Source: Desulfocarbo indianensis (lineage in GTDB: Bacteria; Desulfobacterota; Desulfarculia; Desulfarculales; Desulfarculaceae). From it: 64,000 bases of DNA. Where the stretch lies: NCBI GenBank assembly GCA_001184205.1, contig LBMP01000007.1, forward strand, positions 62,001-126,000, in the 5' to 3' direction. Within the stretch, counting starts at the first letter, position 1; the number at the start of each line of letters is the position of its first letter. The notes beneath the pieces were generated by a model that saw only the letters and a list, made by a program, of their open reading frames with translations, was not told where the DNA came from and did not search any database. This document shows positions 36,300-42,851 of this stretch, piece by piece. Position numbers and translations under genes: made by a program.

Positions 36300-36309
36300 A
36301 TTTATTGAT

Positions 36310-36532
36310 ATCCGGAAGCGGGCGCTCCCTTTGGGGGGCTTGACAAGGGAAGACGGTGCGAAGCCGTCGCGGTCCCGCCGCTGTAACCGAGGACGAGGGC
36401 CGCAGGCAGGCCACTGCCGGCAGAATCCCTTGGCGCGAAAGGCGCGAGAAGCCTCCAGCGCCGCCGGGGAAAGCGAGGCCGGCGGGAAGGCGCGGCCCTT
36501 CGGACGATCCGGGAGCCAGAAGACCTGTCCGT
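36310..36532 (+). promoter_or_regulatory. Cobalamin riboswitch upstream of btuFCD
   Basis: Diagnostic cobalamin-aptamer blocks are in order: GGGAAGACGGTGCGAA, GGTCCCGCCGCTGTAACCGA, GCCACTG, GGGAAGGCGCGGCC, and the 3' box GAGCCAGAAGACCTGTC. Boundaries are approximate. Binding of adenosylcobalamin should switch off the downstream B12-uptake genes. Confidence 0.93.
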
Positions 36533-36612
36533 TTCCCAAAGCCGCCGCCGCGGGCTTCGGCGCTATGGGCGGCTTTCCGCTTGGGGATCAAGCGAGCTGG
36601 GTGCAGTCCCTG

Positions 36613-36638
36613 AGCCCTTAGGGGCCAGGGCTTTTTTT
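36613..36638 (+). terminator. Terminator of the btuF leader (riboswitch expression platform)
   Basis: AGCCCT pairs with AGGGCT, followed by seven T residues, 17 bases before the btuF start. The 16-base motif AGCTGGGTGCAGTCCC directly upstream (36595-36610) is repeated in the btuB leader, suggesting it is part of the switching structure. Confidence 0.7.
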
Positions 36639-36655
36639 ATGGAAAAGGCGGTTTC

Positions 36656-37567
36656 ATGAAGCGCTTGTTGATCATGGCCTTGCTCATCGCCGTGGCGCTG
36701 CCGGCCGGGGCCGCGGCGGCGGGCCGCCCGGTCACGGATGAAATGGGCCGGGTGGTCAATATCCCGGAAAACCCGCGCCGCATCATCGGCCTCATCGCCT
36801 CGCTCACCGAGACCCTGTACGCTCTGGGCCTGGAAAGCCGGGTGGTGGGCGCCACCACCTGGGCCGATTATCCCGAAGCGGCCAAGAAGCTGCCAAGGGT
36901 GGGCTCCTACACGGCGCCCAACCTGGAGCGCATCGTGGAGTTGGCCCCGGATTTGGTGCTGGCCACCAAGGAGGGCAATCCGCCCTGGGTGGTGGAAAAG
37001 CTGGAACGGGCCGGCATACCGGTCTATGTCACCGCGCCCAGGAAGGTCCGCGAGGTGCCGGAGAGCCTGGCCAGGCTGGGCGAGATTTGCGGGGCCGCCG
37101 GGGCCGGCCGCGGCTTGGCCCAGCGCCTGCGCCGGCAGTTCGACGCCGTTGAAGAGCGCCTGCGAGGCGCGCCCCTGAGGTCCACCCTTCTGGTGATCGG
37201 GACCAATCCCCTGACCAGCGTTTCCCAGGGCACCCTGAATCACGAGCTGTTGCTGATGGCCCATGCCGCCAACGTCGCGGCCCAGGCGCCGGGCCCCTGG
37301 CCCCGCCTGAGCCTGGAGTTCGTGGTGCAGGCCAGGCCCCAGGTGGTGATCGTATCCACCATGGAGCGTAGGCAGGATATACAAGGCGAACTGCGTTACT
37401 GGCGCACCCTGCCCGGCGTGGGAGACCGGCCCGGCGGGCGGGTGGTGGCGGTCAACTCCGATCTCATCGACCGGCCCGGCCCCCGCCTGGGCGAGGGCTT
37501 GCTCGCCCTGGCCAAGGCGGTGCATCCTGAACGTTTCGGCGGGCCGCCGGAAGGCGACAGGCCATGA
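36656..37567 (+). CDS. btuF: Cobalamin ABC transporter substrate-binding protein
   Basis: A 303-residue periplasmic binding protein. The signal peptide (MKRLLIMALLIAVALP to about residue 20) is followed by the class III binding-protein fold: RPVTDEMGRVVNIPENPRRI, SLTETLYALGLESRVVGATTW and a C-terminal VVVAVNSDLIDRPGPRLGEG, typical of BtuF/FecB-like proteins. There is no lipobox cysteine, so it should be soluble in the periplasm. The riboswitch upstream and overlapping btuC (ATGA-type) make corrinoid the likely ligand. It is the first gene of btuFCD. Confidence 0.92.
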   Translation: MKRLLIMALLIAVALPAGAAAAGRPVTDEMGRVVNIPENPRRIIGLIASLTETLYALGLESRVVGATTWADYPEAAKKLPRVGSYTAPNLERIVELAPDLVLATKEGNPPWVVEKLERAGIPVYVTAPRKVREVPESLARLGEICGAAGAGRGLAQRLRRQFDAVEERLRGAPLRSTLLVIGTNPLTSVSQGTLNHELLLMAHAANVAAQAPGPWPRLSLEFVVQARPQVVIVSTMERRQDIQGELRYWRTLPGVGDRPGGRVVAVNSDLIDRPGPRLGEGLLALAKAVHPERFGGPPEGDRP

Positions 37568-38568
37568 GGGCCACTCCGGCCAGGGTGGGCCTGACCTGCG
37601 CCGCGCTGGCGGGTCTCTTGGTGGCCAGCCTGCTCCTGGGGCTCAAGCTGGGCACCGCCAGCGTGGGCCCGGCCCAGGTCTGGGCCTGGCTCACCGGCGG
37701 CGAGGTGCCCTACGCCACCCAGGTGATCCTGGGCGATCTGCGTCTGCCCCGGCTGCTGCTGGCGGCCCTGGTGGGGGCCGGCCTGAGCATGAGCGGCGCG
37801 GTTTTCCAGGGAGTCTTGCGCAATCCCCTGGCCGAGCCTTTCATCCTGGGGGTTTCCGGCGGCGCGGCGGCCGGGGCGGTGAGCGCCTTCTTGCTGGGAC
37901 TCAGCGGGCTCATGCCCCTGGCCTTGATGGCCTTTGGCGGCGCCCTGGGCACCATCAGCCTGGTGCTGGCCATCGCCCGCCGCCGGGGCCGCATGGAGAC
38001 CAGCACCCTGATCCTCACCGGCGTGATGATAAACGCCTTTTTCACCGCCGCCATCATGTTCATCATCTCCACCACCACCGACCAGAAACTGCACGCCATT
38101 CTCTTCTGGCTGTATGGCGACCTCTCCTCCTCGCGCCTGGAGCAGGTGTGGCTGCTCTTGCCGGTGGTGCTGGCGGGCGCGGTCACGGTTTTCTTTTTCG
38201 GCCGTCACTTGAACCTGCTCTCCGCCGGCGGCATGGCGGCCGCCGCCCTGGGCATGGCCGTGGAGCGGGTGAAGCTGATCCTCTTCCTGGTGGTGAGCCT
38301 GGTGGTGGGCGTCACCGTGAGCCTCTCCGGCCTGATCGGCTTCCTGGGGCTCATGGTGCCCCATTTGGTGCGCATCGTCCTGGGCCATGACCATCGCCTC
38401 CTGCTGCCGGCCTCCACGCTGTTGGGCGCCAGCTTCCTGGTGCTGGCCGATACGGCGGCGCGCACCGTGATAAGCCCCTCCACCCTGCCGGTGGGGGTGG
38501 TGACCGCCGCCCTGGGCGCGCCCTTCTTCGTGTTGCTGCTGGCCAGGAGGGGCAGCCAATGGTGGTAG
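37564..38568 (+). CDS. btuC: Cobalamin ABC transporter permease (FecCD family)
   Basis: A 334-residue integral membrane permease with about nine or ten hydrophobic helices. Family blocks include GAGLSMSGAVFQGVLRNPLA, PFILGVSGGAAAGA and SGLIGFLGLMVPHLVRIVLG, the last holding the cytoplasmic loop that contacts the ATPase. It overlaps btuF at its start and btuD at its end, so the three are translationally coupled and form a B12 importer of the BtuCDF type. Confidence 0.93.
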   Translation: MRATPARVGLTCAALAGLLVASLLLGLKLGTASVGPAQVWAWLTGGEVPYATQVILGDLRLPRLLLAALVGAGLSMSGAVFQGVLRNPLAEPFILGVSGGAAAGAVSAFLLGLSGLMPLALMAFGGALGTISLVLAIARRRGRMETSTLILTGVMINAFFTAAIMFIISTTTDQKLHAILFWLYGDLSSSRLEQVWLLLPVVLAGAVTVFFFGRHLNLLSAGGMAAAALGMAVERVKLILFLVVSLVVGVTVSLSGLIGFLGLMVPHLVRIVLGHDHRLLLPASTLLGASFLVLADTAARTVISPSTLPVGVVTAALGAPFFVLLLARRGSQWW

Positions 38569-39383
38569 CGCACGGCCTTGGCGAGAACCAAAGTGAACCG
38601 GCGCTAAAGGCCGAGGGCCTCGGCTTCGCCTACGCCGGCCAGCCGGTGCTGGAGGGGGTGGATTTGCAACTGGGGCCCGGCGACATGCTGGGGGTCATCG
38701 GCCCCAACGGCTCGGGCAAGTCCACGCTTTTGGGCGTGCTCTGCGGCCTGTTGCCGCCGGGGGAGGGCCGGGTGTTCCTGCACGGAAAGCCGCTGGCCGC
38801 CTATAAGCGCGATGAACTGGCCCGCCTCATGGGCATGGTCCCCCAGGGGGCGGAACTGGCGCCGGGATTCAGCGTGCTGGAGACCGCCCTGGCCGGACGT
38901 TTCGCGGTGATGGGCGGGCGGGTCTTCGAAAACGACGCCGACCTGGCGGCCGCGCAACAGGCCCTGGAGCAGACCGGCATATGGGAACTGCGGGAAAGGC
39001 GGGCCGGCGAGCTTTCCGGCGGCGAATGCCAGCGCCTGGCCCTGGCCCGCGCCCTGGCCGCCCAGCCGGGCATTCTGCTCCTGGACGAGCCCACCAGCGC
39101 CCTGGACCTGGATCATCAATTGCGCGTCATGGGCATGCTGGAGCGGGCCCGCCGGCAAAAGGGCCTGAGCGTCTGCCTGGTGAGCCACGATCTGAATCTG
39201 GCGGCCCTGTTCTGCACGCGCCTGCTCCTGCTTTCCCAGGGCCGTCCCTTGGCCCAGGGCGTTCCCGCCCGGGTGCTCACCCCCCATCTTCTGGCCCAGG
39301 CCTACGGCGTGCAGGTGGCGGTGGACGCCGAGCCCAGCCGCGGCCGGCCCAGGGTGACCCTGTTGGCCCCGCGCCAGCCCTGA
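38559..39383 (+). CDS. btuD: Cobalamin ABC transporter ATP-binding protein
   Basis: A 274-residue ATPase with Walker A GPNGSGKST, Q-loop VPQGAEL, signature LSGGECQRLALARAL, Walker B GILLLDEPTSALD and H-loop VSHDLN, all intact. It powers corrinoid import with BtuC and BtuF. The start lies within the last codons of btuC. No terminator with a T run follows directly; a small hairpin lies at 39435-39452. Confidence 0.93.
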   Translation: MVVAHGLGENQSEPALKAEGLGFAYAGQPVLEGVDLQLGPGDMLGVIGPNGSGKSTLLGVLCGLLPPGEGRVFLHGKPLAAYKRDELARLMGMVPQGAELAPGFSVLETALAGRFAVMGGRVFENDADLAAAQQALEQTGIWELRERRAGELSGGECQRLALARALAAQPGILLLDEPTSALDLDHQLRVMGMLERARRQKGLSVCLVSHDLNLAALFCTRLLLLSQGRPLAQGVPARVLTPHLLAQAYGVQVAVDAEPSRGRPRVTLLAPRQP

Positions 39384-39434
39384 TTCAGTCCCGATAAAGC
39401 CGTTAGCGCGATTCAGCGCCCCCAAAACCGCCTT

Positions 39435-39485
39435 ATCACCCAAAAGGGTGATGTCTCGCCGGGCCTCAGGCTCCTTAATGGAGAC
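39435..39485 (+). promoter_or_regulatory. Structured leader before the DUF3786 gene
   Basis: ATCACCC-AAAA-GGGTGAT (39435-39452) is followed immediately by GTCTC, which pairs with GAGAC at 39481-39485 and encloses further GC pairs. No T run follows. It may be the 3' end structure of the btuFCD mRNA or a structured leader of the next gene. Confidence 0.4.
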
Positions 39486-39546
39486 AGCGCCCCGGCTTAA
39501 GGAGCGCGCCCTCTGTTAAAAAGTTTCATGAGCGAGGAGGCGCGAA

Positions 39547-40173
39547 ATGGCGGAAAAGGAACTGTCTCCGGTATTCGCGGAGATCAAGAAGGATTACCTG
39601 CAGCAAATAATCGCCAAGTGGGATGACATAGACCTGGAGGCCCTGGGCCTGACGCGCGAGCAAGACGGCATCTCGGTGCCTTTTTTTCATCTGAAATGCA
39701 CGGTCAGCAAGCAGGGCATAACCGGCGAGGGCGCTCATATCCTGGGCCACATGGTCAACGTTATCGTCAGCAATTACCTGTTGGCCGAGCCCGGCCCGCC
39801 GGCCGGCGGCAAGGGTTGGGTGTCTTACAAGGATTTCGCCGACGCCGCTCCCTATTGGGGCGGCTACAACAACGTGGTGGAGCGCAAGATAGCCACGGAT
39901 TATTCCGGGCGGCTGGAGGAGCTGAAGGCCAAATGCCTGGCCTTGGGCGGCCGGGAGCCCGAGCAGAGCTTTTCCTATGACCTGGCCCTGGAGTTCCAGG
40001 CCCTGCCCAAGATCGCCCTGCTGTTGCTTTTCAACGACGCCGAAGACATGTTTCCGGCGCAATGCTCGGTGCTTTTGCAGGACAACGCCAGCGGTTTCTT
40101 CGACATGGAATGCCTGGCCATGCTGGGGATAAGCTTGTCCACCTTTCTCACCGGCAAGGGAGAGCAGGGCTGA
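39547..40173 (+). CDS. DUF3786 domain protein
   Basis: A 208-residue cytoplasmic protein matching, from memory, DUF3786, a family of anaerobes often found near corrinoid or iron-sulfur genes. Features include VPFFHLKCTVSKQG, EGAHILGHMVNVIVSNYLL, GWVSYKDFADAAPYWGGYN and a C-terminal LLLLFNDAEDMFPAQCSVLL. Several aromatic and acidic residues are conserved-looking, but no catalytic motif is known. GAGGAGG lies before the ATG. Its position between btuFCD and btuB suggests a role in corrinoid metabolism; this is inference only. Confidence 0.75.
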   Translation: MAEKELSPVFAEIKKDYLQQIIAKWDDIDLEALGLTREQDGISVPFFHLKCTVSKQGITGEGAHILGHMVNVIVSNYLLAEPGPPAGGKGWVSYKDFADAAPYWGGYNNVVERKIATDYSGRLEELKAKCLALGGREPEQSFSYDLALEFQALPKIALLLLFNDAEDMFPAQCSVLLQDNASGFFDMECLAMLGISLSTFLTGKGEQG

Positions 40174-40182
40174 TCAGTGATT

Positions 40183-40220
40183 GGCGGCTCCGGGATGCTG
40201 TGGCAGATCCCGGAGCCGCC
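40183..40220 (+). terminator. Strong hairpin after the DUF3786 gene
   Basis: GGCGGCTCCGGGAT and ATCCCGGAGCCGCC form a perfect 14-bp stem with a 10-base loop, 10 bases after the stop. A second inverted repeat (CCTTTCCGGAGG with CCCTCGGAAAGG, 40227-40262) and a T run (CCTTTTTATT) follow within 60 bases. Confidence 0.75.
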
Positions 40221-40447
40221 TGGTTTATCCTTTCCGGAGGCGCCCTAATTCCCTCGGAAAGGAGCGGAGCCTTTTTATTGGGGGAGGCAGGATCGGAAGC
40301 GTCTGCCAGGAGCCAGCCCGCCGATCCCTTTCTCTCCCGCTTTACCATCAGGACCCGGCGGTCGATTCACGTGACTAGTTTTCAATCCGACCCTCCGGTC
40401 CTCACGTCGCCTCGGCCTCCAGCGGCGGAGGCCCTGCGCTGAGCTAA

Positions 40448-42424
40448 CTAGAAGCTCACGCCAACGCCTCCCCAGATCACCTGCTCGGGCTCGGGATAAT
40501 AGGAATAGCCATAGGAGCTGGCATAGGCCCAGGTGGCGTATTTCTCACCGAGGATATTGTTGGCGTTCAGGAAGAGCTTGTAGCGGTCCCAGCGGTAGTC
40601 CAGGTTCAAATCCACGGTGATGAAGGAATCCATCTTTTCAAACTCGTTGTTGCGGTCGTTGCCGAAAGGCCTTTCGCCCAGATAATTGGCGCGCAGCGTG
40701 CCGGTGAAGCCCTGGCCCAGCTTGAGGGTCGCGCCGGCCGAGGCCTTCCATTCCGGCACCAGGGGGATATCCTTGCCGTCGTTGGGTCCGGCAGTGAAGG
40801 TGTTCTCCTGATAGCTCGCCGTGCCGAACAGGCTCAGAATCTTGTGCACGGGGACCACCAGGGAGGCCTCCACGCCCTTGTGTTCGGTGTCGTCCAGGTT
40901 TTCGTTGGTCATGGTGTCGTTGTTGTAGGCGATCTCGTCTTCCATCTGCAAAATGTAGAAGGCCAGGGAGAGCCGGCCGCCGGGCATGAAGCTCCATTCG
41001 CCGCCCACCTCGTAGTTGTGGCCTTTTTCCGGGTCGAGCGGACAGAAGGCGCCGTAGGTGACGTACTCATCCACCGTGGGATAGCGGAAGGTGCGCGAGG
41101 CCCGGGCATAGGCCTTGGAGCCGGGCGCGAAGGTGTAGGTGAGCCCCACGCTCCAGGCGGTCTGGTCGTCGTCGTAGCTTTTGGAGGAATCGGCCGCCCC
41201 CACCGGCTTCAAGTCGATGTCGTAATCAGCGCGCTGATAACGCGCGCCAAAGGACAACAGGAGCGCGGGGGTTATATTGAGCTCGTTCAGGAAATAGGGG
41301 CCCAGGCTCATCACCTTGTATTCGATGCTTTCGCTTTTGGGGCCGGAGAGCAGGAACTGATCGTTGTCCATGGCGATGTGGTAATAATCCACCCCCAAGG
41401 TTACGCGGTTGGCGAGCCCTCCCAGGGAATGGTCCAGCACGTACTTGGGTTGCACGCCATAGGTGTTGATTTGGCTTTCGATCCTGGCGTTGTGATAGCC
41501 GCCCAGTTCCGATTCATTGTCCTGGCGGCGGAAGGAAAGATCGGCGGTGAGCCTCCCGCCCGCGCCCCAGTCCTTGCTCAGTTGGCCGCGGATGTCGCCG
41601 GCTTTTTTCTCGCCCCAGTCGTTGGGGCTGAGGCTTTGCTTGCGGTCGGCGTCGTATTGTGCCTGATCCAGGCCGCCGGGCAGGGAGTAATGGGTCTGGT
41701 TGAGGCCGCCGTCCACCAGGAATCCCCAGCCGTTGGCCCCGTCATAGCGGGTGTTGAAGGTGAAGTTGCGCAGCCTGGTTTCCGAGTTCTGCCGGTAGCC
41801 GTCGGTGTAATCCTGGCGGGCCGAAACGAACCAGCCCAGCTTGTCCAGGCCTCCCTGGGCATAACCGCGCAGGCCCCACAACTCATGGCTGCCGTATTGG
41901 GCCTGCAGATTGGCCGTGGGCTTGCCCTTGCCGCCGCGGGTTATGATGCTGATCACGCCGCCCACCGCCGAATCGCCGTAGAGCACGCTGGCCGGGCCTC
42001 TGAGTATCTCGATGCGCTCGATGTTCTCCACGGGGATGGTGGTGAAGTCGACGCCGGACAGGTCTATTTGGTTCATGCGGCGGCCGTCCACCAGCACCAG
42101 GGTGTGCAGGGCGCCGGTCTCGCCAAAGCCGCGCAGATCCACGCTGGCCAAAGCGCCGGTGCCCGAATAGTCGCGCACCGTGACGCCGGCCACGGTCTTG
42201 AGCACGTCGGTGACGGTGAGCGGGCTCAGGCTTTCGATTTCCTGGCGGGTGATCACCGTGACGTTGCGGGGCAGCTTATCCAGCTCGCGCTCGCTACGGG
42301 TGGCGGTGACGCTCACCTCGGGGAGCTTGTAATCGTCGCCGGCCAGGGCCGGCGCGGCGGCGGGGCCGGCCCAAAGCCAGCCAAGACAGCATGCCATCAG
42401 GCAAAGGCAACCAACTTTCTTCAT
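40448..42424 (-). CDS. btuB: TonB-dependent cobalamin outer-membrane receptor
   Basis: A 658-residue outer-membrane receptor. A signal peptide (MKKVGCLCLMACC to AALA) is followed by a TonB-box-like LPEVSVTATR, then the plug domain (LPRNVTVITRQEIESL, VDLRGFGE, IERIEILRGPASVLYGDSAVGG), then the 22-strand barrel ending in an aromatic residue (GGVGVSF). ATG 42424 is chosen because the signal peptide begins there. The upstream cobalamin riboswitch and terminator on the same strand identify the substrate as a corrinoid. It feeds the periplasmic BtuF encoded on the opposite strand. Confidence 0.92.
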   Translation of the reverse strand: MKKVGCLCLMACCLGWLWAGPAAAPALAGDDYKLPEVSVTATRSERELDKLPRNVTVITRQEIESLSPLTVTDVLKTVAGVTVRDYSGTGALASVDLRGFGETGALHTLVLVDGRRMNQIDLSGVDFTTIPVENIERIEILRGPASVLYGDSAVGGVISIITRGGKGKPTANLQAQYGSHELWGLRGYAQGGLDKLGWFVSARQDYTDGYRQNSETRLRNFTFNTRYDGANGWGFLVDGGLNQTHYSLPGGLDQAQYDADRKQSLSPNDWGEKKAGDIRGQLSKDWGAGGRLTADLSFRRQDNESELGGYHNARIESQINTYGVQPKYVLDHSLGGLANRVTLGVDYYHIAMDNDQFLLSGPKSESIEYKVMSLGPYFLNELNITPALLLSFGARYQRADYDIDLKPVGAADSSKSYDDDQTAWSVGLTYTFAPGSKAYARASRTFRYPTVDEYVTYGAFCPLDPEKGHNYEVGGEWSFMPGGRLSLAFYILQMEDEIAYNNDTMTNENLDDTEHKGVEASLVVPVHKILSLFGTASYQENTFTAGPNDGKDIPLVPEWKASAGATLKLGQGFTGTLRANYLGERPFGNDRNNEFEKMDSFITVDLNLDYRWDRYKLFLNANNILGEKYATWAYASSYGYSYYPEPEQVIWGGVGVSF

Positions 42425-42475
42425 TTTCACAGCCTCTCGCTTACTCAAAAAACCCAGTGGACTTTTTTTAACGTT

Positions 42476-42515
42476 CAAAAAATAAAACCCCCCGGTCTCT
42501 TTAAAGACCGGGGGG
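42476..42515 (-). terminator. Terminator in the btuB leader (riboswitch expression platform)
   Basis: On the minus strand CCCCCCGGTCT pairs with AGACCGGGGGG, followed by TTTTATTTTTT, 52 bases before the btuB start. The motif AGCTGGGTGCAGTCCC (42513-42528) overlaps its 5' arm and is shared with the btuF leader. Confidence 0.9.
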
Positions 42516-42636
42516 ACTGCACCCAGCTTGCTTGATCGCCCCTCGAAACAGAATCCCCTAGCCAAAAACGCTTGTGCAGCGCGTCTGGCCGTTGTCGCCG
42601 GTCCTGGCCGGGCTTAAGCGGATTCCGTATCTGGAG

Positions 42637-42832
42637 TCGGCAGGTCTTCTGGCTCCCGGATCGTCCTACTGGCCGCGCCTTCCCGAATGGCTCTGGCGCT
42701 TTTTCCTGGGCCGGCTGGCCCTGGCGCCTTCCAATCAGTGGCTTATTTAGCGGCTTTCGTCCCCGGTTACAGCGGCGGGACCGCGACGGATTCGCACCGT
42801 CTTCCCTATTGAGCCCTTGGCGGGCACCGTCT
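42637..42832 (-). promoter_or_regulatory. Cobalamin riboswitch upstream of btuB
   Basis: On the minus strand: GGTGCCCGCCAAGGGCTCAA, GGGAAGACGGTGCGAA, GGTCCCGCCGCTGTAACCGG, GCCACTGATTGGAAGG, and the 3' box GAGCCAGAAGACCTGCC. All core blocks of the cobalamin aptamer are present. Ends are approximate. Confidence 0.95.
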
Positions 42833-42851
42833 CCGAGTATGTCCTAAGGTT

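Follow-up and report, generated by a model that had tools for sequence, protein, structure and literature searches.

A conserved hairpin behind cobalamin aptamers of Desulfobacterota and Nitrospirota as a candidate corrinoid-docked antiterminator

In the 64,000-nucleotide (nt) stretch of Desulfocarbo indianensis DNA analyzed here (contig LBMP01000007.1, positions 62,001 to 126,000; hereafter, the window), two B12 transport operons, btuFCD and btuB, are convergent, with their leaders at the outer ends, and both leaders carry almost the same 25-nt block between a cobalamin aptamer and an intrinsic terminator. The expression platform is usually called the variable half of a riboswitch, and the question raised by this locus is what a shared block might do in two such platforms on opposite strands. 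According to our analysis, the block very probably represents the loop and the 3' strand of a hairpin, P13-L13, that acts as an antiterminator. The features of the two leaders, in window coordinates, are as follows.

36303..36546, plus strand: RF00174 cobalamin aptamer, btuFCD leader; cmscan score 90 bits, E 6.1e-21
36369..36381, plus strand: P5-L5 of the btuFCD aptamer; its C-rich loop, UCCCG, is the partner proposed for kissing with L13; sequence GCGGTCCCGCCGC
36579..36615, plus strand: P13-L13 hairpin of the btuFCD leader (putative antiterminator), fold -15.5 kcal/mol; 9-base-pair (bp) stem GCUUGGGGA/UCCCUGAGC, loop U-CAAG-CGAGCU-GGGUGC-AG; the stem covaries across the order
36586..36610, plus strand: 25-nt shared block of the btuFCD leader, GATCAAGCGAGCTGGGTGCAGTCCC
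36608..36630, plus strand: btuFCD intrinsic terminator, fold -17.2 kcal/mol, followed by a T run
42488..42515, minus strand: btuB intrinsic terminator, fold -25.5 kcal/mol, z -4.95
42513..42537, minus strand: 25-nt shared block of the btuB leader, GATCAAGCAAGCTGGGTGCAGTCCC
42513..42542, minus strand: P13-L13 hairpin of the btuB leader (putative antiterminator); stem GGGGC/GUCCC, loop GAU-CAAG-CAAGCU-GGGUGC-A
42622..42846, minus strand: RF00174 cobalamin aptamer, btuB leader; cmscan score 108.5 bits, E 3.1e-26
42772..42784, minus strand: P5-L5 of the btuB aptamer with the C-rich loop UCCCG; sequence GCGGTCCCGCCGC

Both aptamers scored above the RF00174 gathering cutoff (31.5 bits) and contained the B12 box and the C-rich loop L5; they are cobalamin riboswitch aptamers by covariance model, and corrinoid binding is predicted for them. 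The Rfam consensus that they match ends just past the B12 box region and includes neither P13 nor L13. The sequence AGCTGGGTGCAGTCCC had two exact copies in the window, at 36595-36610 (+) and 42513-42528 (-), as part of the full 25-nt block GATCAAGC-R-AGCTGGGTGCAGTCCC, whose two copies match at 24 of 25 positions (one G/A difference); the sequence flanking the block differs between the btuF and btuB leaders. It should be noted that a loose search for the 16-mer (at most three mismatches) gave three window matches against 1.13 expected and is thus not evidence, which consists instead of the two exact copies directly after aptamers. The original prediction, made from the sequence of this stretch, had described two facing leaders, each with a cobalamin aptamer and a terminator, and a common block in unlike surroundings; this description holds, the terminators fold, and the calls of btuFCD, btuB and a DUF3786 gene agree with Pfam. 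It had also described the block as touching the 5' arm of the terminator in btuB, which is correct, and as directly preceding this arm in btuF, which is not: the last three bases of the block (CCC) overlap the arm in both leaders (btuF, 36608-36610; btuB, 42513-42515).

The block is not confined to the window. A third exact copy of its 14-nt core was found on a different contig of the same genome, which has 16 RF00174 aptamers and four matches to the 25-nt pattern at no more than two mismatches. The same pattern had 24 matches in 12 of the 21 genomes of the order (reversed control, 0), and in all 24 of them the B12 box lay 64-115 nt upstream. An anchored scan (XAAG-N4..8-GGG followed by UGC or a variant, in a hairpin of at least 4 bp) was applied to the flanks of all 120 aptamers that a family search had found in the order, and at least 72 of them carried the hairpin. 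These 72 were kept from 84 matches by requiring TGC, AAC, AGC, ATG or TTT after GGG and by removing seven loci; the count is a lower bound, since G006:C27 has the motif and was missed, and loci L137, L147, L114, L133 and L142 resemble variants (locus numbers are our own). The relaxed pattern AAGNAANNNGGGTGCNNTCC was present in 13 of the 63 genomes of the class (control, one match) and in 42 of the 395 genomes of the phylum sample (control, 13 matches by hand count). Among the 52 loci from these two scans, 45 had both aptamer signatures and two more (L165 and L173) looked genuine by eye, whereas the remaining five, with no T run in the stretch tested, look like chance matches.

Scanning of named GTDB contigs with AAGNAANCWGGGTGCAATCC yielded 85 stretches; among the 80 listed, a hand count assigned 39 to Deltaproteobacteria, Desulfobacterota or their orders, 29 to Nitrospirae or Nitrospira-related organisms, and seven to other groups, including Omnitrophota, Planctomycetota, Elusimicrobia and Nitrospinae, the other five being set aside as chance. 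Cultured carriers of the element include Dethiosulfatarculus sandiegensis and Desulfogranum mediterraneum. Five of the 87 matches in named genomes (L213, L221, L225, L246 and L252) were set aside as chance. Binning errors in metagenome-assembled genomes could account for single odd phyla, and are an unlikely account of the 29 Nitrospirae records. For 19 loci chosen for spread, cmscan located an RF00174 aptamer immediately before the element, in the same orientation, in all 19. Judged by this distribution, the element is widespread, and its presence in both window leaders points to a conserved function and to nothing special about the locus.

The conserved loop, (C/G)AAG-N4..8-GGGUGC, is enclosed by the P13 stem. 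Because the stem register varies in the order set, anchored scripts were used there, and covariation was assessed in 69 distinct gapless leaders of named genomes with enough flank against shuffled partners (n = 500). Paired cells reached 83.5% versus 75.8% in shuffles, two-sided changes 79 versus 33.8, and the covariation score 0.321 versus 0.182, with 0 of 500 shuffles reaching the observed value in each case, although all three measures are inflated by related sequences; sliding the partner by one column caused covariation to drop sharply. At the four stem pairs beyond the search pattern, 204 of 276 cells were paired (shuffled partners, 161.7 +/- 5.5, maximum 180), and in the leaders of the order the mean stem was 6.23 bp versus 5.26 +/- 0.13 after shuffling (maximum 5.68). 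P13 thus follows the aptamer as a hairpin whose stem is paired, as is characteristic of a kissing-loop platform, and L13 is conserved far past the three G that L5 requires.

The 3' strand of P13 forms the start of the terminator 5' arm, with at least one shared base in 61 of 66 leaders of the order and at least three in 52 (no terminator was obtained for three of the 69 leaders, and the hairpins of L001, L002, L009, L051, L100, L101 and L139 were visibly mispicked by the script), and in 74 of 77 named-genome leaders at least four of six bases were common to both. In the window, 8 nt (36608-36615) were common to the P13 3' strand and the terminator arm in the btuFCD leader and 3 nt in the btuB leader. 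Since one strand doubles as part of both hairpins, they are mutually exclusive, and P13 is built as an antiterminator. The terminator was the stronger hairpin in 81 of 81 leaders (median stability, -18.9 kcal/mol versus -6.1 kcal/mol for P13), as in the window btuB leader (-25.5 versus -7.1 kcal/mol). The claim of the original prediction that the motif is a conserved part of the platform is borne out by many related leaders and by flanks that form a covarying stem, and the overlap with the terminator argues for its probable participation in switching. The two outcomes named in advance as fatal to it, a motif left unpaired or absent from related leaders, did not occur. The P13-L13 identity, the sharing of the terminator arm, the complementarity of GGG to L5 and the occurrence in Nitrospirae and other groups go beyond that prediction, as read from the sequences compared.

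As for the partner of the loop, L5 was identified as the C-rich aptamer loop after PMC2258182. In the 72 motif leaders, L5 read UCCC in 67 and ACCC in three, with two not read, whereas among the order's 48 leaders that lack the motif the loop was ACCC in 15, UCCC in 14 and GCCC in 10, with nine not read; the enrichment of UCCC in motif leaders had a Fisher p of about 1e-11 (read rows, kinship ignored). The GGG of L13 was complementary to the CCC of L5 in 70 of the 72 motif leaders, the other two being those not read. The bases after GGG were mostly U, G and C, and in the variants GGGAAC, GGGAGC, GGGAUGC and GGGUUUAC a C is retained two to four positions further along, a possible partner, across a bulge, for the G preceding UCCC. 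The conserved loop is thus probably the L13 of the known L5-L13 kissing loop, docking onto L5. Two other partners were tried and rejected. The T-loop L4 (GGU-NNNAAN-CC) was dropped as a kissing loop when L5 was reassigned to the C-rich loop after PMC2258182; L4 occurred as 33 types in 71 leaders and had no covariation with the P13 loop or the linker, which has no bearing on L5. The other candidate was an invariant complement of GGGUGC at some other place in the aptamer or the linker. Of the 72 leaders, 59 contained a complement, but this was surpassed by 539 of 4096 hexamers, and GGGUGC was mid-field among hexamers of the same composition; many of its complements fall in P2, which varies while the motif stays unchanged.

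The sign of regulation was predicted by analogy, with precedents for the role of P13 and for the topology in PMC10653944 and PMC10907184. In P. megaterium metE and A. halodurans cobT, the kissing loop stabilizes P13 in the corrinoid-bound state, and a switch activates where P13 and the terminator are mutually exclusive (PMC10653944). The platform described here resembles that of A. halodurans cobT in that P13 and the terminator exclude one another and the 3' side of P13 is the 5' side of the terminator; there, L13 kisses L5, a pairing that is only proposed here (PMC10653944). The A. halodurans case is a single reporter-tested switch before cobT, for which cobinamide is the most effective ligand (PMC10653944), whereas the present case, known from sequence, is a family of Desulfobacterota and Nitrospirae whose members share a conserved L13 and precede genes for uptake and synthesis. 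The repressing P. megaterium metE switch is likewise transcriptional, with P13 before the terminator and a three-base-pair L5-L13 kissing loop whose counterpart here is proposed, but there the terminator is favored by P13, and the antiterminator is a distinct structure in which the 3' side of P13 pairs with the 5' side of the terminator (PMC10653944). By its wiring, P13 here would itself be the antiterminator, and an arrangement of the metE type, with P13 and terminator formed together and a separate antiterminator, was not found, as their bases are shared. In the translational btuB and env8 riboswitches, P13 docks via L5-L13 in a ligand-dependent manner, as proposed here, and governs the ribosome-binding site, whereas here it would govern a terminator (PMC10907184, PMC10653944).

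In the proposed mechanism, the GGG of L13 would kiss the CCC of L5, with a short bulge and possibly an extra C-G pair; P13, weak by itself, would withstand the far more stable terminator only while it is docked on the aptamer. Corrinoid binding would lead to this docking and then to read-through, making an ON switch like that of A. halodurans cobT. Since P13-L5 docking is ligand-dependent in the cobalamin riboswitches studied, this wiring predicts corrinoid-driven read-through, and we give activation by corrinoid as the predicted sign nearly an even chance.

The genes behind the two leaders in the window are as follows.

36656..37567, plus strand: btuF-like periplasmic binding protein, Pfam PF01497 (Peripla_BP_2)
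37564..38568, plus strand: btuC-like permease, Pfam PF01032 (FecCD)
38559..39383, plus strand: btuD-like ATPase, Pfam PF00005 (ABC_tran)
40448..42424, minus strand: btuB-like TonB-dependent receptor, Pfam PF07715 + PF00593 (plug, barrel)

The 74 proteins encoded after the element in named genomes included TonB plug (12), CbiM (8), CobU (7), CbiA (7), Peripla_BP_2 (5), ThiC-like (4) and methylmalonyl-CoA mutase (1), and the 72 of the order included Plug (22), CbiK (11), Peripla_BP_2 (11), CbiA (5) and CbiZ (4); these genes were picked by a longest-open-reading-frame rule, and some are wrong. When the first open reading frame was taken, the element also preceded genes for a methylmalonyl-CoA mutase (L236, Desulfogranum mediterraneum) and an AMP-binding enzyme (L010, own genome), and each of these families has one member in the Pfam counts of downstream proteins.

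Several points weigh against a corrinoid-docked antiterminator that activates. Two of the five covariation measures did not exceed the shuffles, namely how many pairs showed two-sided change (4) and how many pair types occurred (14). GC-rich DNA often has a GGG run in a loop. Neither L5 nor L13 varies appreciably, which leaves their pairing without support from covariation, and it is limited to 3 to 4 base pairs, whereas five to seven are usual in kissing loops (PMC10907184). In the window btuB leader only 3 nt are shared, and exclusion is therefore weaker there; in the btuF leader, P13 (-15.5 kcal/mol) and the terminator (-17.2 kcal/mol) are close, and the minimum free energy structure of the joined region consists of the terminator and other small hairpins. 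Finally, B12 uptake and synthesis genes (btuB, btuF, cbiK, cobU, cbiM and cbiA) are normally repressed by B12, and activation by an end product would be odd physiology; the B12 elements of delta-proteobacteria were found and taken as repressing by Rodionov et al. 2004 (PMC545781).

This physiology favors an OFF switch built on the same P13-L13 antiterminator, in which P13 would protect against termination without ligand, and ligand would displace L13 or block P13 and allow the terminator to form. The downstream genes are of B12 uptake and synthesis types (TonB plug, CbiM, CobU, CbiA, CbiK and Peripla_BP_2), which have historically been known as repressed, and PMC10653944 presents the A. halodurans switch as the first that activates. 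However, a hairpin of 5-6 bp and about -6 kcal/mol would hardly resist a terminator of -19 kcal/mol unaided, and no apo-specific partner was found, since in the aptamer the complements of GGGUGC do not surpass those of other hexamers with equal base composition. We regard repression as a serious possibility, slightly less probable than activation. A hairpin of 30 nt with a conserved loop overlapping a terminator is also the usual layout of a protein-bound antiterminator, and loop conservation exceeds the three G needed by L5, as would be expected if a protein, or a small ligand other than the corrinoid, bound the loop and stabilized the antiterminator (ribonucleic antiterminator, RAT, type); the element is, however, found almost only behind cobalamin aptamers (24/24; 19/19 by cmscan; 45/52 by signature and two by eye), and this explanation is improbable. 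A recent duplication, gene conversion or dispersed repeat without regulatory meaning, suggested by the 24/25 identity within 6 kb, is very improbable in view of the third exact core copy on another contig, the occurrence, across many genera and also in Nitrospirae, of diverged copies whose stems are compensated, and the different leader sequence around the block.

Taken together as one claim, a large riboswitch family of Desulfobacterota and Nitrospirota, in which a conserved L13 serves as a corrinoid-docked antiterminator and genes of B12 uptake, salvage and synthesis are switched on, not off, by corrinoid (perhaps an incomplete corrinoid), is put forward tentatively, as less likely than not. 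The diversity of platforms has been remarked on and further mechanisms are expected (PMC10653944). No description of a sequence-conserved L13 in these phyla was found in searches of an open full-text library, which is weak evidence, subscription papers, supplementary alignments and consensus figures being outside its scope. In Desulfobacterota and Nitrospirae this platform shows sequence conservation, and its addition to aptamer models could help in finding platforms. Its wiring is that of the single published activating corrinoid riboswitch, yet it stands before B12-repressed genes; either these switches activate genes of uptake and synthesis, or the rule that the A. halodurans precedent suggests for such wiring does not hold.

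Several further features were observed near these elements. The DUF3786 gene (window 39547-40173, Pfam E 2.8e-37) lies between the two B12 transport operons, inside the B12 locus as originally described, and nothing was found tying it to the switch except position. Tandem cobalamin aptamers occurred in L050, L051, L052, L054, L055, L064 and L149 (genus g3) and in L232, the motif and terminator platform being followed by the second aptamer, which in g3 is near the start of a gene and seems to have a platform of the ribosome-site kind (CCUCGAGGGAGG). The linker between the B12 box and P13 (e.g., in L273, L262 and L105) contained a second conserved hairpin with the loop CGNGG(A); CG[ACT]GGA was found in 40 of 77 named-genome linkers versus 7.9 in shuffles and in 26 of 72 in the order versus 5.9. 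A second platform type of the order, GGA-GAUGGYAAA-UCC, was seen in L005, L097, L099, L115, L116, L111, L130 and L135; its 3' strand also enters the terminator arm, so that it perhaps has the same antiterminator wiring, and the gene after L005 resembles, by eye, one for a ThiC-type protein (bzaF?). In L004, from the D. indianensis genome itself, GGG is located in the terminator's own loop (ACCUGCCUCGUUGGGUUCAACGAGGCAGGU), so that docking would favor termination, the opposite wiring in the same genome.

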